A stretch of DNA of 64,000 bases from NCBI GenBank assembly GCA_964036295.1, contig OZ038463.1, forward strand, positions 17,595,069-17,659,068. Direction: 5' to 3'. Below the pieces are notes generated by a model. It did not search any database, was not told where the DNA came from, and saw nothing but the letters and a program-made list of their open reading frames with translations. Each line of letters opens with the position of its first letter. Position 1 is the stretch's first letter. The translations under genes were made by a program, and so were the position numbers. Source of the DNA: Plumapathes pennacea (taxonomy: Eukaryota; Cnidaria; Anthozoa; Antipatharia; Myriopathidae). Shown here in pieces: positions 11,895 through 34,230 of this stretch.

Positions 11895-14800
11895 GCACGA
11901 ATAAACAGTTGTCGATGAGAAGGCATTAGTGCACAGTTAGAATTGGATCTAATTGTGTTTCCGTAACATCGGATCCGTTTATCTTGAATGTGCTTTCTGT
12001 GTAAGTATAAGAATAAAAGTCTCTCAGACCATCTTCTAACTGTCAGATTTGTATCTGTCTCTTTGTTTCTTTCTCAAGGATGCATCTATAATCCAGATGA
12101 AGTACAAAGCCGCCGCTAACATTTCTAACGTTGCGGGGGAGATTCCGCTGCACATAGCAGCCAGGTGAGTGAGGCGCGAAAACAAGCTTTTTAAAACAGT
12201 CTATGATAACTATGAACGTGAGATCACGGCAATACGTTAGTGACGTCACTTCCGTTGGTCAGCGTTAGTCACCATTTCTATCCATCTTTTTCACATCCTG
12301 TGCATGCTTCGTTTTCCTTATGAACAACTTAATATGTTACTATAAAATATAAACTGAATTAACTTATAGTTGAGAATCGAGTCCTAGTATTGAGTTTCTT
12401 GGCTTAGTCTAGAGGTTTTACGAACGAACTACTGCACTTTAATCCACAGTTTTGTGCAATGACCGCTGACTCGAAAATAAGGTGACCGCACGGCCGGAAG
12501 GTCTATGAAAGTTTATCGAAACAGAACAGCCTTTAACCATAACTCCCACTTTTCTCCGTTTGCTAGACATGGTCGGTTGGCGGTTGTGAAAAGACTCACT
12601 GAAGGACGTAATAAACGGACGATAAACGCTGATGATGGAGATGAACGGACGCCGCTGCATCTGGCGGCGCAAGAGGGTCACGTGGAGTTGGTCGAGTTCT
12701 TCCTCAAGAAAGGCGCCAAGATTGATTGGTGAGATGATAATAGGAAATGGGATCTCTGTCTGTTTTTCGATAATGAAAGAGGTTTTAGCTGCAAATTAGC
12801 TGCCAGTGCTACTCAGAGACGTGGGCAAAATGCTTTTTAGTTCTTGTTCGAGAGCGACTGAGTATGTACTAGTTAATTTATTATCAATTTATTATTCTCG
12901 TCTAGTTAAAACACTATTCTTTTTTTCAGTGATGTCCATGGTCAGACTCCGCTTCACTACGCCGCTCTTCAGGGCTCCATAAGATCAATAGAACTAATTT
13001 TGACAAACAAACCCGAATGTCTGAATGTAACGGAGAAAAGCCAGGTAAACAAACTAAGCCATTAATCGTTTTACTCCTGAAGGTCAGAATGCAAACTCTC
13101 CCAACTATTTCAGAATAAGAATTACAGACGGCAAAGAAAACTTTTCAAGATCAATCCTTTCTTTTGAGCAAAAAAATTTTCCTGTTAATTAAAGTCCATC
13201 CAAAAAGATACGCAAATAACGTATTCCCTCGATTAAGCGCCCTCCCCCAAATATTAATGGCCCTCCCTCGATTAAGTGCCCCTTCCCCCCAAAATACGTA
13301 CAGTGCAAAATTAACAAATGGCATACTTATACTGTAAGTTATGGCTGATATGAAGGAAACGAGTTTTTTACCACAACACACTAGTTTCTCGCTCTCTGAT
13401 TGGCCGATTTACCGTGGTAAATAAGAGTCCAGACAACGATGCTGACGCCAGCTGACGCCAGCATGTCACGTTTTGCAGCGAAATATAACGAAAGTTTCCT
13501 GTATATTTCTAAATGTTGTGGTAAAAAACAAATTTCCACTGGTTTGCCGTGGTGTGGACTCTTATTTACCACGATTTACGTCATCACATGGTCAAAATTA
13601 GTTGCGGACTAACTCGGCAAAGCGCCTCGTGAGTCCACAACATTTTGACCATGTGATGACGTAAATCGTGGTAAATAAGAGTCCATACCACGGCAAACCA
13701 GTGGAAATTTATTAAATATATACTGTTAACGTTACATGAAATAGTTACTCTAGTAATCCAGCCTGTGAAAAACGTTACTTCAAATATTTTTGTAGCTAAT
13801 AGCTACCTCGGACAACAAAAAATATTTCAAATCACGTTTTTATATTAAGCGCCCCCTTTGGCCACGAAATTTGAAATAAGCGCCCAGGGCGCTTAATCGA
13901 GGAAATACGGTACGAGTTTTTCTAGGAAATGCGCATTTTTGCTAAATCAGAACCGAGTAGTGTAATAAGTACTGACTGCTTCTTTTTTTTTTTTTTTTTT
14001 TTTTTGCTTCACAACATTGCCTCTCGCTGTAGGTATCATCTAATTGAATGATTGCAACACTATAACATTTTGAACGTGCCGCGTGTTTTTCCAACAGAAT
14101 ACAGCACTTCACATGGCAGCTCAGGGTGGTCATGCAGACATTGTCAAGTACCTTCTCTCTAAACCGGAACAGCTCGTCTCTGTCAACGAGAGAAATCAAA
14201 ACATCCTGGATATCGCCATCGAAGCTAGGCAGGAATCTGTTGCCATGGCAATAGTACAGCACGACCGGTACTTTTGTCATCTTTTCCTTGTGTTCTGCAT
14301 GTGTTTCACTTCCGTTCGTTTCTGTCTCTGCTTCCCCTTTTCTTTATCTTTTTGTCTTCGTCTTACTTCTTTGTCTTATTATGTGTCTTGACTCTCTTTG
14401 GTCGTCTCTCGGTGTTTTCTGTTAATGAGCCATATCTGGTTCGTTGGTCTTCAATGCTGTACAGTGTACCTATTTGAATAGCGTGAGATAACTTTTACAA
14501 TATAAATGTTATTTTTTTCTGATTCAGCTGGAAGGAAGTGCTTCGTAAAACAACCCATGGATCCCATACTCAGATTCAGCTGCTTGTTCAGCACATGCCG
14601 GAAGTTGCAAAGGTATAAAAAGTACTTAGTATAGGGTAACATATAGTGCGGTTTTTCGGATTGATTGTGTAATTGCTTTGGTTTTGCACTATTCAATACG
14701 CTTCTGCATTGTTCCAAACAAGCATTCTCTGGCGAATCAGGGACATTGGTTGAGATCTGCTCACGCGAAATTTTTCTTGCAGATATTTTTAGATCACTGC

Positions 14801-16935
14801 ATCGTTCCTGAGGGAATGGAAGAAGACAAGGACTACAAAGTAGGTTTAGATACAATAAGAGTAAAAGAAAGTCCGAGCTTGAAACAGAAAAGTGCACCTT
14901 TACCGCCAAACAACATGCGGAAAGTTCCTTCCTTGAGCCGCGTTGCGATCATGAACAGCTAAGTCACATCAGTCGATATAATCATTGTATTTTTTGTGCT
15001 CGCAGGTGACGTATGACTTGAGGTTCATTCAAGGGATGCCTGACGAGAAGAAGAACGGCAATGCGCGAGAATCTCTCAGCGCGCTGCATGTACGTAAAGT
15101 CAATTTATTGTTTCTTGTGCTCCAGCTGCACACAGCAAAACAACAACAACAACAGAAACACAGGGACATATCGGCAGTGTCGTGATTTATTCAGTGTTAC
15201 ACACATTGTGCGTTACAAAAAGGTACCTAAGACATTCAGTATTACTTGAACTCCAAGCAGGTTGGTTTGTATACCAGAGATTCCTGCATGTATTTTAAAT
15301 GAGTGAAACGTCAAACACAGAAAGTACAACATTTAAGGAAAGTACACGATCGACCAGAGATGAGGATTAGATTTGTCCATCTCTCTTCTGCAGACCATGG
15401 TAAAGTATCAGCGCTTGGAGTGTCTCAAACATCCACTCTGTACAGTTCTTATGGACATTAAATGATAAGTCTACAAACATAATAATGTGTTAGGATCCGT
15501 CTAAACGTGTATCATAATGTACACGGAATGCCAATCAATGTGTGTTTTTTTTTGTATCGTAGCATTAAAAACATTTTGAGAGCTGACTTTGAAAAATTTT
15601 CTCGTGTTTTCTACGATCAAATTCGCAAGGAACTGTTGTCCTGAGAAAACCCGGACCTGTAGTTTTGATCCAGTTGCATTTAACTATTATACCATCGTAA
15701 AAAAGCCTTGACTGTGGAAAATACACTGTAATTTTTAAGTCATTAATTATACATAAAGCAGAAAGTTTTATTTTTAACTTATTGTAACTTACCCAAAGAA
15801 ACTTCAGCAGTTTGAGAGAAACAAAAAAAGAAAACATATCGAAGGTGTAAGAAGGTGCCGTAATGCCCTCTTGCACACCTCGTGTCACATGAAATTGCAT
15901 CCGTTCCCTTAGCCTTCCCAGCTACAGCACTGTAGTTTAACCAACAAACTCGTCAAAAGTGTTAAAATTCACAATTTTTGACAATTTTTAAGCTAATTCT
16001 GCCCGGGCCCACATTCGACAGTATCCAGATAAGGTTGTAAGCAATTTAGCGCTTGACAGTTATAACATGATTGTATGTACAACTCTGATTTTAACGCAGG
16101 AGGAAGTTCGGCTTAATTTGTGCGTTTGTCAACCAAGGAGTGTACGTTCTGTTTATCTCGCTACTGATGTCGATGATGACGAAACTTGTTGAGCAAACAC
16201 CTCAGAATGCAACCAACAACTCGAGTTCTGAGGCATATGTAAGTCAACTGTCCTTGTGTAGATGAGCATTGTTTAATGTCCTAATTTTTTGATGGTTTTC
16301 TTTCCCATATTTTTTCTATTTATTATGTAAGCTCACTACTAGTTCAAATAAACTGCCTTGTTGTTTTGTCTTGACTGTTTTATTTTGTTTGTTAATTTTT
16401 TTTCTTTTGACATATATTTTTGAATTGACTGATTATTTTGTCTTGACTGATATGTTTTCCTTTTGTCCAGAGCAAATCCCTGATAGAAATTAGTTTCGAA
16501 AATGAAGCGTTTTACGCCATGGTGGCCGTTTTCCTTATCATCGCTTGCTGTTACAACTTGGCAAAGGAGCCATTTCAAATATTTGACGAGGTAAGTACTT
16601 AACGACAATAAATCTTCTCAATTTATCAAAGACGTTTAAAATGACTTCCGCGTCGAACAATCCCACAATCCTTTGCGAAAGTTAATTCAAACGCAATCAC
16701 CTTTTCATTTTTAAAATAGCGAATTGCGACTTCTACGTCCAATTTTACATCTCTCTAAACTCGTTGTCTCCCTTCTTTAGGGATACAAGTATTTTTTCAG
16801 TATCAACAATTGGTTAGAGGTAACGCTGTACGTTTTGACTGTGGTTTCGCTGGTGAAACCGTCTAATAAAGCCAGCGCGGAGATGAGTTTGTGTGTTTTC
16901 CTGGTGTGGATTGTACTCTTACACTACATTAGCAA
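913..16935 (+). CDS. TRPA1-like ankyrin-repeat cation channel, 5' 22 exons (partial)
   Basis: Probable exons: 913-1140, 5398-5506, 6458-6633, 7021 to about 7141, 7778-7886, 8667-8764, 9245-9292, 9808-9941, 10781-10829, 11273-11464, 11729-11815, 12079-12164, 12567-12728, 12930-13044, 14098-14267, 14528-14612, 14783-14839, 15006-15089, 15394-15464, 16100-16238, 16471-16590 and 16781-16935. Apart from exon 4/5 and exon 19, junctions are GT-AG and phases match. The product of about 865 residues has a hydrophilic N-terminus, a long ankyrin array (TPLH motifs), the TRPA1-type pre-S1 linker and S1 to S3/S4. This order and length match animal TRPA1, a plasma-membrane channel for chemical or thermal irritants. 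S5, pore, S6 and the C-terminus are not found in the window. The gene is either truncated or has exons beyond the transposon block. Two splice anomalies raise the possibility of a decaying allele or pseudogene. Confidence 0.85.
2921..3479. repeat. 559-bp near-perfect palindrome
   Basis: Bases 2921-3199 and 3201-3479 are reverse complements with a single-base centre at 3200 (AAGTGCT-G-AGCACTT). I saw one arm mismatch, in the CTGCACGGA(C/G)AAACTTG stretch. Outside the arms the flanks differ. A palindrome of this length without a spacer is either a foldback-type insertion or duplication, or an assembly or cloning artefact. Confidence 0.85.
3882..4115. mobile_element. MITE-like repeat with TTGCAACG motifs
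   Basis: The left end reads GTGAGACAGTACTGGCCGAT then TTGCAGCGACG. The reverse complement of the right end reads GTGTTACACTGGTTGATTTG then CAACGACG, so the termini are imperfect inverted repeats. Several TTGCAACG-type words and a small palindrome (GGGTGTAAGTTACACCC) lie inside. No target duplication was established. Confidence 0.45.
5398..8764 (+). CDS. TRPA1-like exons 2-6: first ankyrin repeats
   Basis: Exon 2 (5398-5506) encodes HYGCLHRAALSGK. It ends in phase 1, and exon 3 (6458) supplies the two bases that complete an Asp codon. Exon 3 carries GKTPLHCAV and DDTPLHTAV repeats and ends at an AGG|GTATGC donor (6633/6634). Exon 4 starts at 7021 (ALLRDG then GCTPLHTAA). Exon 5 (7778-7886) carries NMTPLAHAAL, ends G|GTAAGT and joins exon 6 at 8667 to give Ala. 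Exon 6 carries STLLHMAVESG and ends at 8764 before GTGAGC. The one unresolved junction is the 3' end of exon 4, where no GT donor gives the required phase. Confidence 0.8.
7385..7422. repeat. Poly(C) followed by (CT)n
   Basis: A run of about 22 C residues followed by CT dinucleotides in intron 4. It is a simple repeat and its length is likely to vary or be misassembled. Confidence 0.85.
8310..8645. mobile_element. MITE abutting the acceptor of TRPA1-like exon 6
   Basis: The left end AGAGCCATTTTCGGATGACT (continuing GTCGAAA) and the reverse complement of the right end (AGAGCGCTTTTTGTATGACT, continuing GTCGAAA) form terminal inverted repeats of about 27 bp. A related end lies at about 28894-28920 with the closer match CATCCGAAAACGGCTCT. 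The right terminus stops about 20 bases before the exon 6 start at 8667. The element therefore supplies the likely branch-point region of that intron. Confidence 0.7.
9245..12164 (+). CDS. TRPA1-like exons 7-12: middle ankyrin repeats
   Basis: Exon 7 (48 bases) encodes VVELCLNEGAS. Exon 8 carries STPVHLASSYGYMDILDIL and ends in phase 2 at 9941 before GTGAGC, completed to Lys by exon 9 (10781). Exon 10 (11273-11464) encodes a full repeat, GRTALMLAAARH, and most of the next, KTVLHHAIG. Exon 11 carries NTPLHFASRHG and exon 12 carries EIPLHIAAR. Every junction is GT-AG and phase-consistent, so the array appears intact. Several introns hold MITEs or simple repeats. Confidence 0.85.
9450..9678. mobile_element. 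MITE in TRPA1-like intron 7
   Basis: GCCAATTCAATAAACA near 9452 is matched in inverted orientation by TGTTTATTGAATTGGC ending at 9676. A second inverted block (ATTTTACAAGTTGGAC against GTCCAACTTGTAAAAT) lies inside. This is a typical short non-autonomous inverted-repeat element, about 230 bp. The target duplication is not clear. Confidence 0.6.
10182..10424 (-). repeat. Dispersed repeat, inverted copy of 19745-19986
   Basis: About 240 bases match, in reverse orientation, the segment at 19745-19986. Shared words include GCAGCACTTGTTGTCAATGA, TTCTTCGTAACGGT and TTTGCGATCCACATGTGCAA. It lies in TRPA1-like intron 8; the other copy lies in an intron of the P-like transposase. It is followed by GCCCGCTCAG-containing sequence of the same repeat class. 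Confidence 0.7.
11849..11891. repeat. (AG)n microsatellite
   Basis: About 20 AG dinucleotides in the intron after TRPA1-like exon 11. Confidence 0.95.
12567..14267 (+). CDS. TRPA1-like exons 13-15: distal ankyrin repeats
   Basis: Exon 13 (12567-12728) carries RTPLHLAAQEGHVELVEF. It ends in phase 2, and exon 14 (12930) completes a Cys codon and continues with GQTPLHYAALQGS. Exon 15 (14098-14267) has NTALHMAAQGGHADIVKYLL and then a degenerate last repeat, ILDIAIEARQESVAMAI. This is the position in TRPA1 where the ankyrin stack ends before the linker. The intron between exons 14 and 15 holds a roughly 690-bp transposon (13219-13911). Confidence 0.85.
13219..13911. mobile_element. Terminal-inverted-repeat element in TRPA1-like intron 14
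   Basis: The left end CGTATTCCCTCGATTAAGCG (then CCC) is matched by the reverse complement of the right end, CGTATTTCCTCGATTAAGCG (then CCC). Further CGATTAAG(C/T)GCCC copies lie inside. The element carries a nested hairpin (13531-13709). No long open frame is present, so it is non-autonomous. Confidence 0.65.
13531..13709. repeat. 68-bp-arm hairpin within the intron 14 element
   Basis: Bases 13531-13598 and 13642-13709 are inverted copies with about one mismatch and a 43-base loop. They contain GTGGTAAATAAGAGTCC, and a third partial copy of that word lies near 13412-13431. It is probably a smaller MITE nested in the larger element. Confidence 0.7.
13983..14004. repeat. Poly(T) tract
   Basis: A run of about 22 T residues in the intron upstream of TRPA1-like exon 15; a simple repeat. 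Confidence 0.9.
14528..15089 (+). CDS. TRPA1-like exons 16-18: pre-S1 linker
   Basis: Exon 16 (14528-14612) continues the Arg codon split at exon 15 and encodes RWKEVLRKTTHGSHTQIQLL. Its Trp and spacing match the segment after the last ankyrin repeat in animal TRPA1 (family knowledge). Exon 17 (14783-14839) encodes IFLDHCIVPEG. Exon 18 (15006-15089) encodes VTYDLRFIQG and ends ESLSALH. Both resemble TRPA1 linker sequence around the conserved EPLTALN motif. Exons 16 to 18 end in phase 0 with canonical donors. Confidence 0.8.
15394..15464 (+). CDS. TRPA1-like exon 19, with AT instead of GT at the donor
   Basis: The exon follows CTCTTCTGCAG and encodes MVKYQRLECLKHPLC, a good match to the TRPA1 segment just before S1. 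The protein-guided exon end is at 15464, where the last two bases (TG) join G of exon 20 to make the Trp expected in the family (KW followed by RKFG). The intron then begins ATAAGT rather than GTAAGT. If it is not spliced, the next in-frame codon is TGA and the protein stops before any membrane segment. Confidence 0.75.
16100..16935 (+). CDS. TRPA1-like exons 20-22: S1 to S3/S4 membrane segments
   Basis: Exon 20 (16100-16238) encodes RKFGLICAFVNQ followed by a hydrophobic S1 and a loop with NATNNSS sequons, as expected of an extracellular S1-S2 loop. Exon 21 (16471-16590) has S2 (MVAVFLIIACC). Exon 22 (16781-16935) begins GYKYFFSINNWLEV, the conserved S3 entry of TRPA1, and runs into S4. It ends in phase 2 before GTGAGT. 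The next expected exon, with the rest of S4, S5 and the pore, was not seen in the following sequence. Confidence 0.8.
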
Positions 16936-17888
16936 GTGAGTCCTAACTCCATCGTTCCTCTACACAATTCGTAACTTCTGCTGTTTAATAAGAACCCTTT
17001 CTGAGCTAAAAATTCCAAGTTCTAACTATTCACAAAGAAAATACACCAGACATTATGAGATAAGGTGCATATAGTACGTGCGATATGATTGGTGAACGCT
17101 GACGAATTCTGTGTGCATTATAACTCAACATAGCACGCACGCGTCAATTTGACGGCAGCTTGTGTCAAACTCGAATAGAGAACTTTTCAGCGTGCGTCCA
17201 CAGGCAGCCCACAAGGTGTTACTAAGTCACGCCTGATCGGTCATGGTCTGATGACGTCACGGCCGATCGGTTAATAAGGATTTGTATGGGGAGATTTTCA
17301 AATCACATTTTATGCGTGAAAATAAAACAATCTTTCTCCTAAAATTCGTCAGATAACATTACGAGTCCTTATTTACCGTTTAAGGTGACTTTCGAGGCGA
17401 TTTGGCGCCGATTTAGCGATTTTTTTTTGTGCTGCCCGTCTATGTACTGATATTTTGGGAAGGCAGGAAGCCAAATGCCTAAAATCCCCGACTCGCTCTT
17501 ACATAATCGCCGATTTCTCCCCGAAATCATCGCTTAAACGCCATCTGGCTCCGGCACAGAACAGAACGACGACTAGACTTCTCAGACACATCGACATGCA
17601 GCCGATAAACGCTGTTTCTCCATGCGAAAATGCTAGCGAAAGCTCGGCAACTTCGATTCCTAGATCATCGGACAGTTATGCATGGACCAGAAAAAAACCG
17701 TTGGTGTCAATTTGAATCCCCACCACCCCTCCCCGAGTGACAATTTTTTCAAACGTTCGCTCAAACCGAATGCCAGACCTCACCCGCCTGGGTAAAATTT
17801 GACACTTCCGGTGAGTTCCGGCCCAGTGAATTTATTTAAAATTGCGTACTGTCAGAACTTAACTGATCTCCCGGCGTCCACCGGCGAA
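16936..17888. other. Junction between the TRPA1-like gene and the P-like transposase
   Basis: No coding exon was recognised. At about 17236 the sequence TGATGACGTCACGG, followed by TGTATGGGGAGATTTT, resembles the terminus of the inverted-repeat element at 45419 (TGTGACGTCACGG and TGTATGGGAGATTTT). It may mark the left end of the P-like transposon. The stretch 17400-17888 would then be its 5' UTR. Confidence 0.4.
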
Positions 17889-18558
17889 ATGAAAGCTTCA
17901 TCGAAAGCAAAGCGCTCATATAGCTACAGCTACAGTCACGCTGCAAAACTCTGGTAGGTTTTATCGGCACAAGTCAGCTTGAAAATCATTCGGCTTTAAT
18001 GATTTTAAATCATTACTTAACTTTCCATTCCAGGTTCTTGAATAATTTTGAATTTCACTATGGACAGTTGACTCCGGCTAACGAGATTCTCCAGCAGTAT
18101 ATCAGCGAAAAGGAGCAACTGTCTTTCGTGCTGAATAGTGCATCACTTGGAAGGATTATTCGAGATGTCTTTGGGAATTCGGTGAAACTTTGCCGTCCAA
18201 GAATCGCAGGCTCCAGACATTATGCTTACGTGAATTTGTCCGCGAAGATTCATTCGCCCACAAAATCACTGTCAGAAGTTGCTGATCTGAAAGGATGGGT
18301 CTACCGACCGTGCAATAGCACAAGTTTCAAGTTCAACAAATTCAGTGGCATATACATAAATTTGACAGAACTTATTTTGGAATTAAATGTCAATTTTGAA
18401 AAAGCATCCTTTGTAGTTAAAGGATTTCCCGGGTGCTGTGTTACCAGCGAGGAACTCGAATTTGATTGCGAACTGATATCGAACACTGGTCTCGAGCTGA
18501 TCTTGGATTTTATGAACAGCTACGGTTTGTGCTCTGGCGTTAGTGTACCGGAAAAACT

Positions 18559-18619
18559 TAGCCTGCGTAGCGGCCTCGAGGAACTAGTTCCCAGTCCCTC
18601 GAGGCCGCTACGCAGGCTA
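18559..18619. mobile_element. 61-bp palindromic mini-element with 9-bp target duplication
   Basis: The insert begins TAGCCTGCGTAGCGGCCTCG and ends with its reverse complement, giving arms of about 23 bp around a loop of about 15 bases. It is flanked by direct repeats GGAAAAACT at 18550-18558 and 18620-18628. Taking out the insert plus one duplication (70 bases) joins the upstream and downstream transposase frames exactly. A 9-bp duplication suggests a Mutator-type transposase acting in trans (inference). Confidence 0.85.
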
Positions 18620-19619
18620 GGAAAAACTGTGCACTCGCCTGCGAGAGTCAGATCCTATATGTAGACGGGCTTCCGTAAGCATGGGGGAATCTCCGGAGGC
18701 TGTCACGGAAAGGATCATCTCAACTAGGTGTATGGTTTTCGCTGGAAAAGATGGCCTTTGCTGCTCCGCCTGTGCAAAAGCTGTGACATGTCTGAGAAAA
18801 CGGAAAGAATGCAATAACGCACCTAAGACCAAGAACCAGGTTTTGAACAGAGAAGATCTTCTCACCAAGCTGAAGAATGTAACTCGGGAGAAGAATAACG
18901 CCCAAGACAGGAAGCAGTACTGGAAAAAGAAGTTCGAAAGTCAGTGTCTGATGGTCAACAGAGAAGATCATGACGATTACATGTCCATGATGGAAAAGAT
19001 ACAGTCGCAAAATCTAACAGACGACCTGCGCATCCTGTTTGACCAGCAGCAGAAGGCTTTGAGAACTTCCTTACCGTTTCAGTATCGGTGGCACCCAAAG
19101 TAAGTTGGTAGTACAGACGATTTTTTGACTAAATCCTATTCTCTCCCTGCTAAGAAGGTCAGGGCAAAAGAAGAGGCACAAAAAAGTTATTCATCAAACG
19201 ATTGAATCTTGCTTCTGAATGGCTCAGTATTTTTAACAAATTGTACTTGGTGCCTTTTTTTTCCTGTGCAGAATCATCAAACTATGTCTGGAAATCCATG
19301 CCTCGTCTTCCAAAGCATTTTGCAAGTTGAAAGATTACATTATTTTGCCCAGCAGCAGGCTACTCAGGTAATATATGAAGTCTTAATATATCCATCAATC
19401 AATTGCCAGCCTTACGTAAAGGCAGACATTTTTTCGACACCTGTAAAGAAAACTAATACGAAATTATCGCTTGTTCATCGTAAGAAAGCTTTAGCCTGGG
19501 AAACGTCTCGGGCATGAAATATAATAGAAACTGAAATTGAATAATGCCGCATTTCGGTATATACGGTATGTATTGCTATCCTTGCTGAAATAAATACTAT
19601 TATTATATGGCACTGATAC

Positions 19620-19760
19620 TACGCACGCTACGATTGGTTAATTTACCGGTCCATACTTTCCTGTACGGACCGCAAATTGATTTTACGCACGTTCTGATTG
19701 GTCAATTTTACCGGTCCATAACTTACTGTACGGACCGCAAAATCAGTTTGCACATGTGGA
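19620..19760. repeat. Tandem pair of about 65-bp units with GTACGGACCGCAAA
   Basis: Two adjacent units share TTACCGGTCCATA, CTGTACGGACCGCAAA and GATTGGT. The same words form the arms of the hairpin element at 20771-20930, so both belong to one repeat family. It lies in the intron after transposase exon 3. Confidence 0.7.
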
Positions 19761-19986
19761 TCGCAAATGATTACTCGAAAAGTTGCTAAACGTTTGTCAT
19801 AAAAGGCCCAGAAGTGCAATGGGAAGTTTAAACGTTCCGGATACTCACTGTTAAGTTATGATGATCGGGGAAAGTTTACAATCTTAGAAAATGACCGTTA
19901 CGAAGAAGGAAAACGTCCGAGGAAAAAATTGCTTGCGACCTTAGCCGTCATTGACAACAAGTGCTGCAGAGTATGGAGGGTTTTTT
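19745..19986 (+). repeat. Dispersed repeat, inverted copy of 10182-10424
   Basis: Same repeat as at 10182-10424 in opposite orientation. It contains TTTGCACATGTGGATCGCAA, GTTACGAAGAAGG and TCATTGACAACAAGTGCTGC. It lies within the 1.6-kb intron between transposase exons 3 and 4. Confidence 0.7.
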
Positions 19987-20770
19987 CACCCCTGTGTTAA
20001 AATTTGCACACTTGCCAGGAAGAAAGTGGAAAGCGAACAATCACCGTGAACAGTTATGACTAAAACCGTGCAAGAATCAAGTTTTGCAGACATGTTTGCT
20101 CGTCATGGCGCACTGTGAAGACTGTAAATAAATTTTTCACAATGCAAGAGAACTCTGTATTTCGAAATCACTGACTGGGACAAAAACGCCGTGGTGATTT
20201 GAGGACGTTCATTTTGCTGGAAGAAACCTAAACGCTCCACGAGGGGGCAGAAAAATTAAGCGGTGAGTTTTGAATAATATAACTTTCAACGATGTGTCGG
20301 TCGCACTTTGTGATGAAATGATTTTCTTTTAGTGCCATTTTGCCTTCTACATTATTGTACGTGTAAGAAACTTATTCAAAAGAATAAAAAATACTCTGAG
20401 TTACAAAGCAGTTTCTTCTGGAAAGAGATAAGACTGCAGTTTTTTTAAATCTTTAGTGAGCGAGCAAGGGCGAGTTTGAGTCGTTCACCGAATAAAGTTC
20501 ACTGCAGTGTCGTTGTTTGACACACGCTATGGGCCATTTCATTCAGCTCAGAACAAATTAGTATTTATCTAGGCAGTTGGTTCGGCAGACGCTTATTTTC
20601 TTTCAAGATTTTCAAATCAGTAGAATTGTAAGCTGTTAACTGAATTTGTTGTGAAAACAAACGTGCGTAATTCATGCCTGATCGCGATTGATGTTGTTGA
20701 ATGAACAAGACGAGTACTCGTTGGGGCCTTGTTTTATGTTTGCTGAAAGATCTAAAGCCATATAATAAAT

Positions 20771-20930
20771 ATCTTATTAACCTCGTTTGCTTGGTCCGTA
20801 CCGTAAGTTATGGATCCTCGTTTTTTTCGTCGCCTTATGGCCCTCGCGCGAAGCGCGCTCGGGCCATAAGGCGACGAAAAAAACTCGGTCCATAACTTAC
20901 TGTACGGACCGCGCGCTCGGTTAATAAGAT
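20771..20930. mobile_element. 160-bp hairpin MITE in transposase intron 3
   Basis: The ends ATCTTATTAACC and GGTTAATAAGAT are inverted repeats. Inside, GGTCCGTAC(C/A)GTAAGTTATGG and GTTTTTTTCGTCGCCTTATG pair with the opposite arm around a short CGCGCGAAGCGCGC centre. The whole element can fold into one long hairpin. Confidence 0.75.
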
Positions 20931-23222
20931 CTATTTATATACACGTTCTGAAGTGAGTGAGGAATTCGTATTAAAGTTATTTAATTTTTCGAATTTCAGG
21001 TACTACAAGAAGTCAATTCCACTGTCTTCAGGTTGGAATGCTGACGTTTTTGTCTGGTGTAAAAAGGAGGCTGAACGTCTAAATCTGAAAGAGGCGGACC
21101 GATGGGGTGGACTGATTTTCGACGAGATGACTATTCAGGTGACTCAATGCTTTAATTACTGTACGTATTTCCTTCGTGCCTTGTTCTCATTACCTCCCGC
21201 TGTCCTGTCATCCAATCGAAGTACCCAAAGATTAGACCAAATAACATATATATATTACTACATTCATTGGGCCGTCCTTTCTAAAACAGGAAGACCTCCA
21301 GTTTGTAAAGATCAACGGGAAAAGCAAACTTGTCGGAGCTGTGTGTCTTGGAAAGACGTACGAGTACATGCGCATTTTAACTGGCGGTGGGTTAAATATA
21401 TGTTTAAACTATCTTGTACAATGAAATTCAGTTCCTTTGTCCTAAACATTTTAACGTGTGCATAAAAAAATATCTTCTCTTTGATGTAGGCAACAGAGAA
21501 CTAGAAGTCGCAAAGAAAGTGATGCAGTTCGCGCTAGTTACAGACAGTGGCTTCAGATTCGCATTGGCCCATTTTGCGGTTGCTACGCTTCCAGCAGCGG
21601 TCTTGGTAGAGAAATTCTGGCAAGGTGTGAAGTGGTGTGGTCGCGCTGGTTTCAGGTAATAAAAACGTATGAATTATTCGTCAGACACAGACAGTATCAA
21701 ATGTTCAAAAAATAGACTGCTGTCAGATAATTCAAATATTATGACGTCACACACTGGAACTCTGTTATAAATTTGAACAACTGTGTTTATCTAATGTGAT
21801 TAAAACTACAATTGTGCGCTTCAGTCTCTTTTCGACACTTAACCTGTAGAATTGTCTAATATTTCCCGTTTGATAGAATATACTGGACACTATGTGATGG
21901 TGGTGAACCAAACAGATCTTTTATAAAGATGCTGTTTCCCCATTCTGATCCAGTATCTGCCCATTTTGTTGCCCACAACCCCCATACCGGAGGAAAATTA
22001 GCCGTCATGGTTGATTGTAAGGTAATTCACGCACTCGTCTAGTGTAGTTCAGTTTGTGGTACTCTAAAACCAGGAGGAAAACTTTAAAAAATTCTCGATC
22101 TCAGTTATCGTGGCTTCGTTTCTGAACGGACCAGCTTATTTGTATCAATCTATATTCAAAGTTTTTACATTTTTTTTATTTTCCCCAGCATAATTTTAAG
22201 AAAATTCGCAACAACTTGATGAAAAGTACAGCTAGAAAAAACAGCCTGCGACAGCTAAAGAAAAATGGCCAGCAAATAGTCTTCCAGCAATGGAAGGACG
22301 CCTACGCTTGGGATTGCGAAAACCATTCCTTGCCCCTACACGAGAAACTATCTGATGAACACTTTGATCTGTCCCCCAAATCCAAAATGAGGAACAAGCT
22401 TGCTGAAGACTTGCTAGATGAAAAGATGTTCTATCTCATGAAGGTATACACTAACATTTTAAAGGCAAAACGGAGACTGGTCATGGAGTTGTGACTTAGT
22501 TTCCCCAACCATGTTTGTCTAAGGGCCGGATTAACTCGATGTGAATAACAACGTCTGGAACCGGCTTGTTCTAAGCAAAAAAAATTTTCACAAATCTAAT
22601 TAGTAGATACTTTTTAAACCCTCTCTGTTATCACTGAATGTTTACTGTTCATTGACCATTATTTGTCTTCAGGAATACAAGAAACACGTACTATCTGAAA
22701 GCGGCAGACAAGCGGCCGAATCTTTGGACCAGTCCATAGAGTTGCTGGAGCACACTAGTCGATTGATATCATTATTTCATAGCAAACAGCTCCTGGAAAC
22801 CACTCATGATACGAGAATTACCAGTGCACAAAGTTTTCTTGAGTACATGAGATTATGACAAACTGTGGTTTGACTTGCAATCAATGGTGATGGGATTTGA
22901 AGCCGTCATTAAAATGAAGACCACCGCATTTCCAGGAGCTGTTATCAAGCCAGTGCTTGTGAACCAAGATGTTTTGGAGAACATTTTTTGCCAGGTCAGG
23001 GGAATGAATGCTCAAAATAACCACCCAAGGTATCAACTGTACCAATCGAGCATCAGGTCTGTTAACCTGGGACAGACCCTGCTCAGCAAGAAAGGAAACA
23101 CTGGGGGCGATAAAGATTCTCTCCCTTGCGCTGGCCTCCCAGTGCCACACCCTTTCCGAAAGGGTAATCAGCCAAATCCAGATGTAGCTACTTGGAATCA
23201 GCTGGCTACAGTTCAATTTAAT

Positions 23223-26200
23223 TTAGCGAGTTCCGTGAGTGAAACGGATTCGGCATATTCCGTTACCGCTTGAAGGTGCAACGGTTACAACACGGAGGTC
23301 TGAAACGTCATTTAGAAGCCAATATGAGGGTATAGACTCGGTTTCCACAATTACAGGCGCTAGCTTTGCTCCCAGCTGTGGCTTCGTGTCGCGTGAGGTG
23401 TGCGCTACGCGATATGCCAGACACAGGGTGCGCAACTCCTTTACAAAGTAGACTGTCCACAACACGGACTCACCAAAAGAAGTCACCATACACTGCAATT
23501 TGCGGTGAGAGTCTCGCTTGCACGGTGATCTGTCGGCGGACATAGATTTGATAGTAATCTTTGCAGCTTTCCTGGCTGTTTTCTCCCTTCTCATTAGGAC
23601 CATTTGTCTGTGAGCGGCAGTCTTCTTCAGCATGTAGCTCCGCCGGAAGTCTCTCATAAATTGCATGATTGGCCCCCATATTCATGTATCTGTGGACTAT
23701 GTCGCCGAGCAGTTCTTCCTTGGCTGCCTATATTGTATCAAAATAGGGTTGCGTAATTCTTTGGATAAGAGGAAATTAGGAAAAGGTAATTGTAAGACCT
23801 AATGGACTACAATATGTATCGTTTTTAAAATAAAATATATATGTAAAAAAAAAAAGTGAGAAATTGTACCTTTGTTCTGGCATTCAGTGTTACTTCAGAA
23901 AACACCTCTCCCCATGCCATTGCCAAATTAGGACTGTTCCGTACCGCCTCTTTCGCCATCTCAAGTGTGTTTTCTCTGTGCTCCTGAACCCGTTTATGGT
24001 TAAGATGCTTTACCCTTTCTTGCTCCAGCTTCAAAGAAAAAAGGTAGAAGTTGTCGCTTACATGTATGAGCCCGCGTGATCGGTACTGCCGTGCTTCAGT
24101 AACACTAAGAGTCTCTGGGTAATCCGAACAAGAAACCAGGTTGTCGTAGGGCACAGTAATGTAGTTCTGCAACAAAAATAGCTTTGACATTGCCAAGTCG
24201 ACTTTGTTGAGAACTGAATCAGACTCTGTATACAGATTTCTTGCAACGTACTTTCTTTCCGACTTGAGCACTCTGGAAGCAGCCCAGGCACCAACAAACC
24301 GCACTTTTAGCTTTTCCCTGATCATCCATTGCCGACACCGAAAATTCCTCAAAGTTGGTCTGTTCCGAAATGTTCACCGCCTTAGATACAGAGCACAGGA
24401 GAGCCTCAAAGACACTACAAATCAAATCATAGGAGAAACTCAATTCTTCGATGGTCAGGTCGGGTCGTGTATCCCCTCCATCTTCGTCAATGCTGGATAT
24501 ATATGACTTTAACCATCCCCGAAATTCAGCAGTGCTGTGCATTCCCCAAACTTGTGAGCTCACTTGCTTCATTGCTGCTGTAGTAAATCGCGTCTCACTT
24601 ACTGTTTGCCTCATGTACTTGCGCAGATATCCGTAGGACTTGAGCCAAATCATTTGAATAAAAACTTTAGATACTGCAATGTTGTTCAAAGCTCTGTTGA
24701 TGACTCGGTTACATTCTGCTGAAAAGGAGTCCTCGGCCAACTTGGATGTATCTAGTTGGGTTGATATGAGATGGTTGTAGTCAAAATCCGGTGGCGGTTG
24801 GCTTAAAGTGGAGTCGAATTTCTCCATACTCTGAAGAGCGTCTTCCAGGGTGGCGAAAACATCTTGCTGTGAATCCACGTCTACATCCTCAAACATATCG
24901 GTGATGATGTGTTCAATAGAGGAATCTGCCTGGGAGTCGTCCTGATCAGGCAGTTCGTGTTCCAGCGAATTGTTACAACAACGTACACTGTTGTCAAAAT
25001 CAGTACCCTGCAGGTCGCCAATCCGGCCAATCTCCTCTGCGCGATTCTTCACGTGTCTTGGATCAAAATCAAGAACTTGAATGTCGCTTTCTCGGCGTAC
25101 TCGAGATAGAGCGGTATATAAGAGACCTCCAGTAAATTCATGGGTAGAATGGACCACAGCCTTTTCAAGTTGGAGGCCTTGAGCCTTGTGAACGGTGCTG
25201 GCCCAGTTGAGACTCAAAGGAATTTGCGTACGGGACCCGATTTGATTCCCTGCTTGATCTACGTTAGGCCACGAGACTGCCTTCACAAGATACTCTCCAC
25301 CGTCTACTTTAATGAGTGCAGAGCCATCACCGGTCTTTCTAATGAATTCTCCCCTCGTACCGTTATGCACTTTGTCGTTTATGTTGTACAGACACATGAT
25401 AGGCGCTCCTGGTTTGAAGAAGGCATCCTTTCGGGCAGGGCAACGGATACCATTTACGCTGTCCTTGTCTACTGCTGTAAATTTGCACTTCTCGCCACCA
25501 AGATTCTTCAGGCATCTGGCATTATGCTGATCTGCTGACAAACTGTGAAAATATAGATGAACAGCGCCAGAATCATCATCAAGAGGTCGGAAAAGCAGCT
25601 GTAATTCTTGGGCAGTGCCTATTGAACATTTTCCGACTCTCAGGTCTCTTAACACGCTTTTCAGTCTCTCCTGTGACGGATCTTGGCGGTGCAAAACTGA
25701 AAGGACGATCTTATGTGGGAACAAACTCTGGTATAGTGGTGCATGGAACATCATCAGCCCGTCATCAAAGTTGTTGGGAACAGGCTTTAACTGCAACCAA
25801 TCTCCGACAAAAATCACTTGCAATCCACCAAAGGGCTTCTTGTTTCCTCTTACTTTGCATGTCACCGCGTGAAAAAGTTGGAGTACTCTTGCGCTACCCA
25901 TGGAGCACTCGTCCCATATTACGCAATCGACTGCACTTATATCTCTCCGACAGCGATCTCGTGCGACTGCATTCTGGACCACGGTTTTGAATGGAGCTGA
26001 TGCAGTTCCGATCCCCAGAAATGAATGCAGAGTGACAGGCAAATGTTCCGGCATAATATTTTTAAATACTTCGCAAGCAAGTCCCGTCGAGCACAGCACT
26101 TGAACATTTTTGCCGCCACTGCTCAGTCTCTTATACACCTCTGAAATTACTTTAGATTTCCCCGTGCCAGCTTCACCACATATCATGAATCTATGGCTTT

Positions 26201-26252
26201 CCAGAGCTTGAAAAATGCAGTCATGCTGCTCGGGTGTGAAGATCACCTGCAA
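23223..26252 (-). pseudogene. PIF1/RecD-type helicase of a transposon, C-terminus frameshifted
   Basis: The main frame runs from the acceptor TTTTTGCAG|GTG near 26243 down to 24219, about 675 residues. Walker A GEAGTGKS lies near residue 26, Walker B VIWDECSMG near 112, motif III FVGDWLQLKPVP near 150, and motifs V/VI STVHKAQGLQ and LLYTALSRVR near 355-385. These define a superfamily 1B (PIF1/RecD) 5'-3' DNA helicase. The exon opens with a 3' splice site, so an upstream exon should exist. Near 24325 the frame shifts and continues as KLKVRFVGAWAASRVLK to a donor at 23869, then from 23727 (AAKEELLGDIVHRY). A further shift near 23665 leads into MRDFRRSYMLKKTAAHR and an SAP-like ELRTLCLAYRVAHTSRDTK. 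The last 50 bases overlap the convergent P-like transposase. Confidence 0.75.
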
Positions 26253-26431
26253 AAAGTTATTGCTTTCGATTCATTGTTGTAATATTAACGCTGATAAATG
26301 TGTTTGCATATTCGAGACTAAAATCTGTGCAGATGAATGAAGTCGGACAAAAATCGTACAATTAACCGAGGTTTCATGGTTATGCAGTTTTACATCTACT
26401 TAATCTATGCTTGAACGATAAAGTGTGTGTT

Positions 26432-28505
26432 TCACATCATAATAAGAACTGGCACAATTGATGTGATGGGATTAGGTGGATCATTTTCCCCATTTGATTT
26501 GCAAGCCTGGTAAACAATTTGTCGAGGATAAAACTGGGATGGCCAGTCACCAGGCATTAAAACTACAAACTTTGAAAGGTACTCTTTAAGGTGACTTTGC
26601 AAAACAATTTCAAAAGCAGCCTCATAATTTTCTCTGGACTTGAGTGGTAACTTTACAAAATCCACAAGGTGCACATCATTAAAAGAACGCATACTTCTCA
26701 CTGAGGCAGAAGCATGATAATCATGAGCTTCCAAACGCTGCCTCTCCATAAGTGGATCAAAAAATAAAACAGCCAATTCAGGCATTGTGGAAGCAAATGT
26801 ACTTGATAATTTGTTCAAAAAAGGCTGTGTAGAAACAAAAGAAGTCAGTGCATCCACATTGACACCAGAAGGATTGTGGATTTCGTTTGCACTTAGAAAA
26901 GGAATAGCCTTGATCTCTTTGACAATCTTCACAATGATAGTGCAGAAATTATCTGCAACTGAAGTAGTTAAATCTTTTGGGCGTCTTTTTGTATGAATCT
27001 TGGTGTAGTCATCAATCATTAAAATAATTAAACTTTGATTTTGGATGGCAGTTTGAATAATTTGATTAAAAACTTCCAGACGACTTTTGGCAAATTGAGA
27101 GATGTTTCTTCTCACCACTCTTGAAGAGCAGGCAGTGCCTATGTTTCTTTGGGTGTCAATGCCTTCATCTGTAAGGTGACACAGTTTCAAGAATAGGGCA
27201 TTGTCTTTTTGAAAGGAATCACATTTTTGAGAGAGGCAGAAACATAACTGATAAAGAATGGAAACAGTTCGCCTCTTGTTTAACTCAAGCCTGTCTTTAG
27301 AATGACGCCCAGAACTTACAGAACTTAAAATAAAATTGAAAACGTTTCCAGCCCCAGCTGCCAAGCAAAATTGGTAAAATTTATGTGGGTCATAAATTGA
27401 GGATTTTTGATTTGTGCCATGAATATGCAAATATTTTTGCAGACGCTGGATTTCTTCAGTGTAATATTGTCCTAAAAGAAATAAACAAGAACTAATGAGT
27501 AAGAGTTCATAACTGATGTTTATTCATATTATTTTGTCATGTGTGTTATTAACTTGATGAAAATCATGCCACAGTGCTAATTTAAAATCGTTTTCACAAG
27601 TTAACACATTTAAATTTTTGAACACTTGCTATTTTGTCTAAGCCACTGAAATGCAGTGGATATTCTGTGAGTACTCTGATCCCATCAAAATTCTTCATGC
27701 TCTCAGGTGTTATATAGTGTTTTTTGTTTATAGTGTAACTGGGTTGTTATTTTGCATATAGTTTTAGCTTGTTGAATTCCTCAGACGCACACAAACATGC
27801 AGGTAGTAACAAGGTAATCTTGTTGAACATGTTCTGTCATGTGTATTTCAAAAACAGTGTCAAAACAACTCATTATTGTTAGCCATTTAAAAATTACTGT
27901 ACATAGTTTGTACTTACAATACAGCTGAGAGCCACCTCAACCGCTAGTACAATATACATTTGATACTTTCCGCTCGAAATACAATTTAACCAACACAAAA
28001 ACACAGTGTAATATTGTAAACAATAGAGAAATAAAACAAACAGAACATTATCTTACCGGTCAGTTTCAAGAAGCTGGGTGTCGCATCCCCTCCTGGTCTC
28101 TCATTCTCTTTTCCTTTCAAATTAATTATCGCAAACAATACGTTATTCTTGAAGTTCTTTAGACAAGAAGTGAGTCAAAAAATATCCACACCTTCAACTC
28201 CTTCCTCCTCGTGGTGTTCTCCTTCCTTTCCTGTGTCAAGTTAAACACAGAACGTTAGGAAAAATGTTTCTGGCAGTTAAGAAAGCTACTACACCACAGG
28301 TACTTGGAAATAATTGGAACTATTGTTGGAAAACATACGTACCTTCCTCAGAGTTTTTAAAAAGCTCTTCTGGAACTGCCGGACTAGAGCGTCTCTCAGC
28401 GCAGTAACACTTTCTGCAAATACACTTTCCCGAACCCGTTTTCGTAAAGGGAGAGGGAGAGCTTTTTCTCCCACAAACGAAACAACCGACTTTCGAACGG
28501 AACAT
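26432..28505 (-). CDS. Transposon protein with N-terminal Cys-rich finger, four exons
   Basis: Probable exons on the minus strand: 28505-28343, 28230-28192, 28113-28057 and 27471-26432. All three introns are phase 1 and each junction makes a Gly codon, so the model is strongly self-consistent. The protein of about 431 residues starts MFRSKVGCFVCG, with CFVCG and CICRKC as a probable zinc finger. After a short acidic linker comes GQYYTEEIQRLQKYLHIHG and a large domain with LIILMIDDYTKIHTKRRP and VVLMPGDWPSQFYPRQIVYQ. I recall similar proteins as multicopy transposon products in cnidarians, possibly RNase H-fold (DUF6589-like), but cannot verify this. It ends abruptly at VPVLIMM and stop, which looks truncated. 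The helicase lies 180 bases downstream on the same strand. Confidence 0.6.
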
Positions 28506-28510
28506 TTTTT

Positions 28511-28568
28511 AAATTTCCTCACAATGGGAAGGTACTCCGAAGAGCTTCTTCCCATTGTGAAGAAATTT
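28511..28568. repeat. Hairpin just upstream of the finger-gene start codon
   Basis: AAATTTCCTCACAATGGGAA (28511-28530) pairs with 28548-28568 through 21-bp arms with one mismatch and a 16-base loop. It lies immediately 5' of the ATG at 28505 in the minus-strand gene. An alternative ATG within the hairpin is in another frame. Confidence 0.6.
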
Positions 28569-28739
28569 TCGCGGCACTCGTACTTTTAGAGACGCCGCCG
28601 CCAATTTTCCCGCCCAAAACAGACGCGGCTGCCATTGAAAACGAATTGATTTCAGAACAAGTCATCATTCTCTGAGTTTTTGTCAGGCAATGATCTCTCA
28701 TTCGAAAACAAATCGGCGGCCATGTTTGTCTCAGATCTC

Positions 28740-28922
28740 ATTATTTGCGCATGCGTTTGTCTATAGTGAATTGACCAATCAGACAATAGTCTCCTTTGTT
28801 AAACGCAAGACCAAACGTGAATTACTTTGGCTTCCAATTGGCTGAACTGTTTTCTCTCAGTCTCTGTGATTGGCCTGTGTGATTACTTTGGTTTTGGTTT
28901 TCGACAGTCATCCGAAAACGGC
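28740..28922. mobile_element. Partial MITE related to 8310-8645
   Basis: The right part shares GATTACTTTGGTTTTGGTTT and CGACAGTCATCCGAAAACGG (then CTCT) with the right end of the MITE at 8310-8645. No matching left end was found, so this copy is truncated or rearranged. It abuts the Helitron-type sequence that follows. Confidence 0.5.
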
Positions 28923-29000
28923 TCTAACAGAGAAATTAGACTTGAACGAAGCATTTAGATTTGAACGAAGCAACAATATATCGTAGCTACGTTCACGAAA

Positions 29001-29669
29001 ATGGAAAACTTAACTGAAAAACTTGAAACACAACAGTCTCGCGAAGCTCGTCTTCAAATGAGAAGGGAACAGGCACGAGCAAGGCGAAATCGTGAAACGA
29101 GCGAACAACGCCAAATTCGTCTCGAGAAAAGGCGACAATCCTGTTATGATCGACAACATCATAAAAAGAATCGTGCCGAAGAAACGACTCCGCAAAGAAA
29201 ACAGCGCATGAATGCCGATCGAAAGCGACATGAACAGAAGCGGAAAACGCAGAAAACTCCGCAAAGAGAATCCAATCGCCAGCGAGTAGCTTCTCGACGT
29301 GGCAATGAATCGTCTGAACGGAGTACCCGCAGGCTTCAAGCTCAAAATGAAGCCAACACTCGACGCCGACAACAGCGTGCTGCAGTTATCGAAGAACGTC
29401 GCAGCCAAAAACAACAATATTTGCATAACCGTGGATGGGCAAATCCAGAAATTCCTCCATTCCACGAACAAGAATGGGTGCGGGAAGAACTCACTGCCTT
29501 TCACAGCTTTGAGGAAAATCTCCGACACTTACGCTGCAAGGTATGCAGAGAAACATGGCCGATCACCAACCAAAGTGTGCCCGAGCTAGCGTGGGTACAA
29601 AGGTCATGTCCTCAACTTGCCACAGGATGTTCAGGGATTTCTCAGCACTCTTCCAGCCAATGTGAGTGA
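29001..29669 (+). pseudogene. Helitron-type protein N-terminus (fragment)
   Basis: The 222-residue frame opens with ATG after CGTTCACGAAA. About 150 residues are extremely Arg/Gln/Glu-rich (REARLQMRREQARARRNRE), followed by WVREELTAFHSFEENLRHLR and CKVCRETWP. This arrangement is typical of N-termini of Helitron replication proteins before the helitron_like_N domain (recalled family knowledge). The frame shifts near 29530-29580: the +1 frame continues AEKHGRSPTKVCP. No Rep or helicase domain follows, so this is a decayed or internally deleted copy. The second copy at 55894 confirms the start. Confidence 0.6.
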
Positions 29670-32961: not shown

Positions 32962-34230
32962 CGCTTCACTACTTATGTGTTTTCTTTTCTTAACTCAATA
33001 CGTTTCTTCTATCAGGCTTTCGAGTATTCGTGCTCTGTAACAAATATAAAATTGAAAGCGAGGAATGTCACACGAGAGATGTTTACAATATTATTGCGCT
33101 TTTGTTCACAGTGTGTTCAGTCATTTGTGACTGCAAACTCAATCCTCAGAATTATTTCGGTGTATTTTTCATTTCTGGTATTTAATGAACATTGCGAAAC
33201 AAAGACTACATGATCGAATGAAAGAAACACTTCAACAGGCAATGTACGATACGCAGAAGAATTTTATGAGGCAACAGATGTCATGTACAGAGTAAGGCAT
33301 AAAGCGTCATTGTTTTACGGCTAAAGCTCACCGTAGCTTTGGTTTCTGTTTTCGCCCTGTTATCTTCCCAAAAGTATTTCGTGTCGCCACAGAAAGTTTC
33401 GTCGGGACTAAATACTTATCGGCGACAGAGATATTTGCAATACCCCAGAAGTACCATCAAACATTTGTTTACGGCTATTAATTCTCAAAGCTTGTGCGGT
33501 GAACGCGAGCCAAAATCTTTTCCTAAAATCCAGTTTATCCATGCCTATTCCACAGAGCCAAATGGCGTTGAATTTGAATGGGATGCAGTTTACTTTTTCG
33601 CTTCACTACTTATATGTTTTCTTTTATTAACTCAATACGTTTCTTTCTATCAGGCTTTCGAGTATTCGTGCTCTGTAAGAAATATAAAATTGAAAGCGAG
33701 GAATGTCACACGAGAGATGTTTACACTATTATTGCGCTTTTGTTCACAGTGTGTTCAGTCCATTTGTGACTGCAAACTCAATCCTCAGAATTATTTCGGT
33801 GTATTTTTCATTTCTGGTATTCACTGACCATTGCGAAACAAAGGCTACATGATCGAATGAAAGAAACACTTCAACAGGCAATGTACGATACGCAGAAGAA
33901 TTTTATGAGGCAACAGATGTCATGTACAGAGTAAAGCATAAAGCGTCATTGTTTTACGGCTACAGCTCACCGTAGCTTTGGTTTCTGCTTTCGCCCTGTT
34001 ATCTTCCCAAAAGTATTTCGTGTCGCCACAGAAAGTTTCGTCGGGACTAAATATTTATCGGCGACAGCGGTACCATCAAATATTTGTTTACGGCTATTCT
34101 CAAAGCTTCCGCGGTGAACGCGAGCCAAAATCGTTCCCGAAAATCCAGTTTATCCGTGCCTATTCCACAGAGCCAAATGGTGTTGAGTTTGGATGGGATG
34201 CAGTTAACTTTTACACACAAGTAACGAGCA
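32962..34230 (-). repeat. Two tandem units of about 635 bp inside Helitron-like copy A
   Basis: The units start at the TTCGCTTCACTACTTAT words near 32962 and 33597. They share long identical stretches such as GTCACACGAGAGATGTTTAC and CAACAGGCAATGTACGATAC. The same tandem arrangement occurs in copies B and C, so the duplication predates dispersal. Confidence 0.85.

Follow-up and report, generated by a model that had tools for sequence, protein, structure and literature searches.

Introduction

Drosophila P elements and THAP9-type elements carry a single transposase gene, and PIF1-type helicases are carried by Helitrons and Helentrons. Here we describe a transposon of the anthozoan Plumapathes pennacea that is predicted from its sequence to encode a P-superfamily transposase together with a PIF1-type helicase. 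It lies in a stretch of 64,000 nucleotides, hereafter the window (assembly GCA_964036295.1, contig OZ038463.1, positions 17,595,069 to 17,659,068; C2:17595069-17659068 in our numbering), in which an earlier note had seen a possible large composite transposon comprising a P-like transposase, a PIF1 helicase and a finger protein. A single genome was sampled throughout (290 Mb, 24 contigs).

Among described elements, Galileo of Drosophila resembles the window family in its P-type DDE core, long terminal inverted repeats (TIRs), foldback-like copies and 7-bp target site duplication (TSD). Galileo TSDs are reported to be 7 bp long with the consensus GTATTAC, rarely 8 bp, and to favor GT at the start (PMC4168063), which compares with a T at position 2 in 11 of the first 13 TSDs of the window family. 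Galileo has a THAP domain, and the word helicase occurs zero times in the main text of PMC4168063, whereas the present element has a possible RFX-like domain and a PIF1-type gene. The Drosophila P element and the THAP9-type Pdre2 share the catalytic core, with motifs colinear with those of the P transposase structure 6p5a, but Pdre2 is described as having an 8-bp TSD and 13-bp TIRs (PMC10983969), and elements of this kind have a THAP domain. Combinations of a DDE transposase and a helicase in one DNA transposon are represented by KolobokH, Kolobok-1_CCri and AcademH (PMC9587614, PMC10045372). In Kolobok-1_CCri the helicase is a RecQ enzyme encoded on the complementary strand (PMC9587614). These elements differ from ours in belonging to other transposase superfamilies and, for Kolobok, in the RecQ type of the helicase. 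Helitrons differ in using an HUH nuclease and single-stranded transposition (PMC12730594), whereas the present element has TIRs, TSDs and a DDE transposase. PIF1 is listed among the transposable element domains given for AcademH, KolobokH or Helitron (PMC10799480), and a Hydra genome paper describes large groups of PIF1-like helicase genes beside groups of transposases, without linking the two (PMC7642931).

Among the papers listed in our literature searches, none described a PIF1 helicase or an RFX domain in a P element; because Repbase and most subscription journals lay outside the search, a database-only description of such an element is quite possible. We read the element as a P-superfamily lineage that resembles Galileo and carries PIF1 as an accessory helicase. 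Because the THAP model remained unmatched, we have assigned it neither to Galileo nor to the canonical P elements.

Two genes within one pair of terminal inverted repeats

We analyzed 20 kb around each of the 10 top-ranked helicase loci besides the window (L013, L014 and L016-L020 are among the loci outside this sample). Two of them contain a full-length element:

C4:9066921-9075947: full-length copy, 9,027 bp, TIRs of 759 bp (99.87% identity), TSD GTCTATA
C1:36072590-36082315: full-length copy, 9,726 bp, TIRs of 689 bp (99.86% identity), TSD CGCGTAC

Both genes lie between the TIRs in convergent orientation in both full-length copies. The transposase gene of the C4 copy comprises nine exons with AG..GT introns and encodes 868 residues free of stops, and its helicase gene comprises three exons encoding 967 residues, likewise free of stops; by homology, residues 30-867 of the transposase could be located in the C1 copy. 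The full-length form is a transposon with TIRs of about 0.7 kb that start with CACAGGCnnCCC, 7-bp TSDs, and a convergent P-superfamily DDE transposase and PIF1-type helicase. The earlier note had proposed a search for shared termini and target duplications, and both copies supply them. Its term composite does not fit, as two flanking transposons are missing and a single TIR pair encloses both genes.

The terminal sequence CACAGGCnnCCC is found in seven of the 10 helicase loci, and at four loci (C3:7.69, C2:28.78, C1:17.66 and C11:7.15 Mb) a distance of 715-899 bp separates it from the helicase start, on the outer side. Comparison of each locus with itself revealed full TIR pairs in two of the 10 and partial pairs in another two (C3:7.69 and C4:24.68 Mb). 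The C3:7.69 Mb locus is a sister of the C4 copy (95-96% identical in DNA) without transposase residues 468-695, and the C2:28.78 Mb locus has transposase sequence on both sides of the helicase, one of them an extra piece.

A convergent transposase lies downstream of the helicase in six of the 10 helicase loci, not counting the window. A further pair, partial and split by an insert, is present at C8:10266352-10277931. The transposase and the helicase have diverged in parallel: pairwise identities among seven copies, measured over 65-66 columns for the transposase and 723-964 columns for the helicase, correlate with r 0.77, a value reached by two of 5040 permutations, of which one is the true order itself. 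The seven copies represent about five lineages, of which that of the window is the most distant (45-52% and 31-34%).

The copy in the window

Positions 17199-26443 of the window are a truncated, mutated copy of the two-gene transposon, and we regard its identity as a P-superfamily transposase plus PIF1 helicase transposon as almost certain. Its features, with those of the adjoining gene fragment, are as follows:

17199..17860, + strand: left TIR, begins CACAGGCAGCCC; about 662 bp, length deduced from derivatives
17889..17953, + strand: transposase exon 1; ATG, open frame, GT donor
18034..19099, + strand: transposase exon 2; putative RFX-like N-terminal domain and linker, split by the hairpin insert
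18559-18619: hairpin insert in exon 2; 61 bp, inverted repeat, missing from the C1:16.27 Mb copy
19272..19367, + strand: transposase exon 3; matched by relatives, AG..GT
21000..21138, + strand: transposase exon 4; predicted first catalytic D (FDEM)
21290..21386, + strand: transposase exon 5
21490..21655, + strand: transposase exon 6
21877..22021, + strand: transposase exon 7; predicted second D (DGG..NR) and D of DxxH
22189..22443, + strand: transposase exon 8
22673..23273, + strand: last transposase exon; predicted E (LENIFCQVRG), frame break near 22850, stop TGA
23223..26246, - strand: PIF1-type helicase; stop TAA at 23223-23225
~26246 to 23870, - strand: helicase main exon; from the acceptor to ~24300, frame break, on to 23870, then intron
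~23723 to 23223, - strand: helicase last exon; further frame break
26443..26444, no strand: junction at which the right end of the element is lost and an unrelated finger-gene repeat starts
26444..28508, - strand: finger-protein gene fragment, outside the element

The element starts at 17199 with the letters CACAGGCAGCCC. A DNA search with 17000-18700 gave 80 listed matches including the window itself (565 candidates, 40 scored); 62 of the 80 start within 17192-17204, and many consist of two opposite arms placed back to back. We place the left end at 17199 because of these clustered starts and inverted arms. In a derivative at C4:24.68 Mb, one arm corresponds to 17199-17860 and the other to 17783-17860 inverted, and because the inner ends of both reach window position 17860, we infer a TIR length of about 662 bp. 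A second, right-hand copy of this TIR was not found within the 64-kb window. The same derivative shares 26294-26445 with the window, its homology ending at 26443-26445, and continues for about 250 bp before its TIR fragment. The span of 17236..28580 given in the earlier note is accordingly corrected to a start at 17199 and an end of the copy at 26443.

The convergence of the transposase (+) and the helicase (-), noted earlier with an overlap of about 50 bases at their 3' ends, holds, with a measured overlap of 51 bp. The overlap is not general: the two full-length relatives have their stops separated by 85 and 131 bp. The window copy is damaged by the 61-bp hairpin in exon 2 and by frame breaks in both genes.

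The transposase

The transposase gene (17889-23273, +) is spliced from nine exons and ends in a TGA stop at 23271-23273. The predicted protein carries the P-superfamily catalytic core of D, D, DxxH and E, for which the motifs FDEM/IDEM, DGA/DGG..NR, D.KH and VENHF/LENIF can be read in the sequences; DxxH is described as a motif held in common (PMC9587614, PMC4168063). Both halves of the TNP-like RNase H fold, PF21787 and PF21789, score above the Pfam cut-off in the C4 copy. PF21787 (TNP-like_RNaseH_N) is found in all three aligned members, including the spliced core from the window, and PF21789 (TNP-like_RNaseH_C) in two of the three, the window row being without that exon. Scanned as a single exon (22875-23273, +), the window matches TNP-like_RNaseH_C with an E-value of 3.1e-4, under the curated cut-off. 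A single transposase sequence gave no match in the PDB up to E 1, and a profile of the three rows was needed to obtain one: its best match is the Drosophila P transposase 6p5a (E 0.024), through three colinear segments, each weak by itself, in which the first D, DxxH and E are found, and its second match (E 1.4) is unrelated. A long stretch separates DxxH from E and has no Pfam match to the P GTP-binding domain.

At the N-terminus, exon 2 matches RFX_DNA_binding in Pfam with an E-value of 2.3e-4 and 22 bits, against a cut-off of 27. The only PDB match of a profile of this domain, up to E 10, is RFX1 (1dp7, E 0.0093). An AlphaFold model of the window segment had a predicted local distance difference test score (pLDDT) of 44 and was discarded. 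Together, these matches weakly suggest an RFX-like N-terminus in place of THAP. The intron before exon 4 contains CGGTCCATAACTTACTGTACGGACCGC repeats in both orientations (19642-20912), perhaps a small inserted element.

The helicase

The splice sites of the window helicase were read by eye, as was the candidate for a first exon that the C4:24.68 Mb derivative contains; the first exon of the window gene probably lay beyond the junction at 26443/26444. The predicted protein belongs to the PIF1 family, as judged by its superfamily 1B (SF1B) motifs and a match over the full length of the core. Pfam PIF1 matches 24219-26252 (-) with E 3.1e-22, and a second score is E 5.8e-27; a helicase profile finds PIF1 (E 1.5e-65) and Helraiser (E 2.5e-18) in the PDB, and the SF1B core motifs are invariant across the three aligned rows. 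The C-terminal 570 residues matched no Pfam family, and the full-length helicase is of PIF1 type with an additional C-terminal half outside the Pfam families.

A Helitron origin of the helicase is not favored, as its profile scores (scores, not a tree) are closer to cellular PIF1. Helitron membership, which would entail a Rep/HUH protein and termini without TIRs or TSDs, does not agree with the TIRs and TSDs of the element, and Helitron_like_N gave no Pfam match for the window pieces or among the best 25 of the 33 helicase families listed for the C4 copy. Other helicase matches in the genome (L018-L020) have long frames with tails that we take to be a Helentron-like endonuclease. When the helicase alignment was scanned over viral contigs with a viral origin in mind, none of the 84 pattern matches was confirmed.

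Foldback copies and their target duplications

Copies consisting only of TIRs are abundant in the genome, with at least 80, 73 and 72 matches listed for the three TIR families; the last two figures, for the C4 and C1 families, include the source copies, with 40 candidates scored for each. From the window family we assembled 23 foldback copies, 18 picked by eye from the listing and five more with both ends listed; C5:8.08 Mb, which has a shortened left end, and copies with one end unlisted are excluded from this sample. An exact 7-bp TSD flanks 15 of the 23, and three have an 8-bp TSD, one of which is a run of T. Counted together, TIRs with 7- or 8-bp TSDs are present in both full-length copies and in 18 of the 23 foldback copies. 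As a control, TSDs were matched between different copies, and the two agreements among 506 ordered pairs trace to two copies with GTGAAAC as their common target. Arms may be unequal, as in a C4-family foldback with arms of 743 and 541 bp.

The window itself holds a second terminus of this type, CACAGGCGGCCCAAGCTGATTGACTGTG at 45393 (+), which is the TIR of the C4:9.07 Mb family. Positions 45393-50120 are a foldback derivative with a right arm in two pieces, 46043-46460 and 50054-50120, about 3.6 kb apart.

A proposed role for the helicase

The copy number of cut-and-paste transposons rises mainly by sister-templated refilling of the excision gap, and copying through long perfect inverted repeats is difficult. 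The explanation that we consider fairly probable overall is a P/PIF1 two-gene element whose helicase would refill excision gaps. The catalytic core, the TIRs and the TSDs support cut-and-paste transposition by what is predicted to be a P-type enzyme. The transposase would bind the TIRs through its putative RFX-like winged-helix domain, replacing THAP, excise the element, and insert it at a target cut staggered by 7 bp. The helicase may then drive synthesis of the displacement-loop (D-loop) or break-induced kind across the long inverted repeats, with the sister chromatid as template, by which the excision gap would be refilled with the full element, while failed or template-switched copying would leave TIR-only foldback derivatives. 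Foldbacks with unequal arms are what copying would be expected to yield if it were interrupted or switched template. Donor-gap repair as the specific task of the helicase is proposed tentatively, by analogy with flies lacking POL32, where PIF1 is reported to be needed for efficient repair of P-element excision gaps, and with the promotion of break-induced replication by PIF1 (PMC8951532).

Several points weigh against this explanation. The gap-repair role is argued from analogy, and the P elements of flies are described as depending on host repair enzymes (PMC7776569). The copies are all from a single genome. At six of the 10 helicase loci no TIR pair enclosing the genes was found, full pairs being confined to two, and at four (C1:17.66, C11:7.15, C2:21.97 and the C4:24.68 Mb derivative) the transposase was not found. 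Transposase-only coding fragments occur at C4:14.90, C6:13.10, C3:8.33 and C3:10.52 Mb, and a derivative at C3:10.60 Mb joins the start of the transposase to 58 bp of the helicase region. In the other transposase copy of the window family (C1:16.25-16.27 Mb) the sequence ends within the last exon, and none of the matches listed there is a helicase of this family. Neither THAP nor P GTP-binding-domain models of Pfam matched the window and C4 proteins or the aligned members, the RFX match is weak, falling below the Pfam cut-off and appearing in one of three members, and five of the 23 foldback copies have no clean TSD (one of the five by a single mismatch). Transposase copies without a helicase, which the earlier note had named as evidence against a single element, thus exist; these and other copies or fragments missing one or both genes look like deletion derivatives. 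As for termini between the genes, the other such evidence it had named, a break separates the helicase from the finger gene, and none was found between the transposase and the helicase.

Alternatively, the helicase could act in transposition itself, for example by opening the long TIRs or the target DNA or by remodeling the transpososome after strand transfer, which we consider unlikely. Other transposase superfamilies also include pairings with helicases, as in KolobokH with RecQ (PMC9587614) and in AcademH, where the TSDs of 9-10 bp, compared to 3-4 bp for AcademX, are tied to differing accessory enzymes (PMC10045372). In the present family, however, TSDs are mostly 7 bp long, like those of Galileo, for which the main text of PMC4168063 names no helicase, and in vitro P transposition has been described with transposase, GTP and Mg2+ (PMC7776569).

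A little less likely again is that the helicase serves survival, with no part in transposition, by allowing replication through the 0.7-kb inverted repeats or by countering host silencing. Near-perfect long inverted repeats are textbook obstacles to replication. Pif1 is reported to assist replication past G-quadruplexes, tRNA genes and R-loops, a list in which hairpins are not named (PMC8998199). Against this role, many TIR-only copies persist without a helicase of their own, although a helicase acting in trans would serve them too.

The finger gene and other neighbors

As stated in the earlier note, a finger gene lies upstream of the helicase on the same strand, with a long exon at 26435-27480 and a CxxC finger exon at ~28343-28508, both (-). 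The finger repeat has three near-full copies elsewhere, 97-98% identical, besides partial ones, and these do not match the helicase side of the window. Position 26444 is the common match start of the three longest other copies, in which the frame runs on past this point, and the window fragment is truncated exactly there. Because the element and the finger repeat are both cut at the junction, we consider the gene an accidental neighbor; it is possibly a separate mobile gene. As cargo of the element it was ruled out.

That three unrelated insertions abut by chance has a very low probability: the region is rich in repeats and the finger gene is truly an unrelated neighbor, but for the transposase and the helicase the idea is refuted by the convergent pair in six of 10 loci, the matched TIRs and TSDs around both genes in two copies, and the parallel divergence. 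An equally improbable larger element including the finger gene, for which adjacency and strand speak in this window only, is refuted, as the gene is unmatched in all 10 helicase loci, truncated at 26444 and present in its own copies elsewhere, and the full-length elements end without it. The single multi-gene element of the earlier note therefore stands for the transposase and the helicase but not for the finger gene.

The finger-gene pieces had no Pfam match when scanned. The long exon holds DDYTKIHTKRRP, and further cysteine-rich stretches follow past the truncation in other copies. To the right, a high-copy repeat extends from 28801-28925 to beyond 31800 (at least 107 matches listed; 4594 candidates, 40 scored), and a basic open reading frame within it (29001-29669) is matched in other loci also. 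At 33007-34212 about 640 bp are duplicated in tandem with 91-98% identity, and at 35448-35714 AAGCCGCGGCTT motifs are surrounded by a 48-bp inverted repeat with 92% complementarity. To the left of the element, a host gene has ankyrin repeats at 14083-14391; exons near 16501-16936 look like those of a TRP channel, for which Pfam gave no confirmation.

Conclusions

With this element, the repertoire of the P superfamily gains a PIF1 helicase and, if the N-terminal match is true, an RFX-like reader. More tentatively than the gap-repair role, we suggest that an old and stable P-superfamily lineage may have swapped THAP for an RFX-type reader and acquired PIF1, giving a gap-repair engine of its own, akin to break-induced replication, and a self-made form of replicative cut-and-paste of which foldbacks would be the failed products. 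The element is a source for the abundant foldback repeats of this genome, and the presence of a transposase and PIF1 in one element makes a transposon-encoded copy-number engine a directly testable question.

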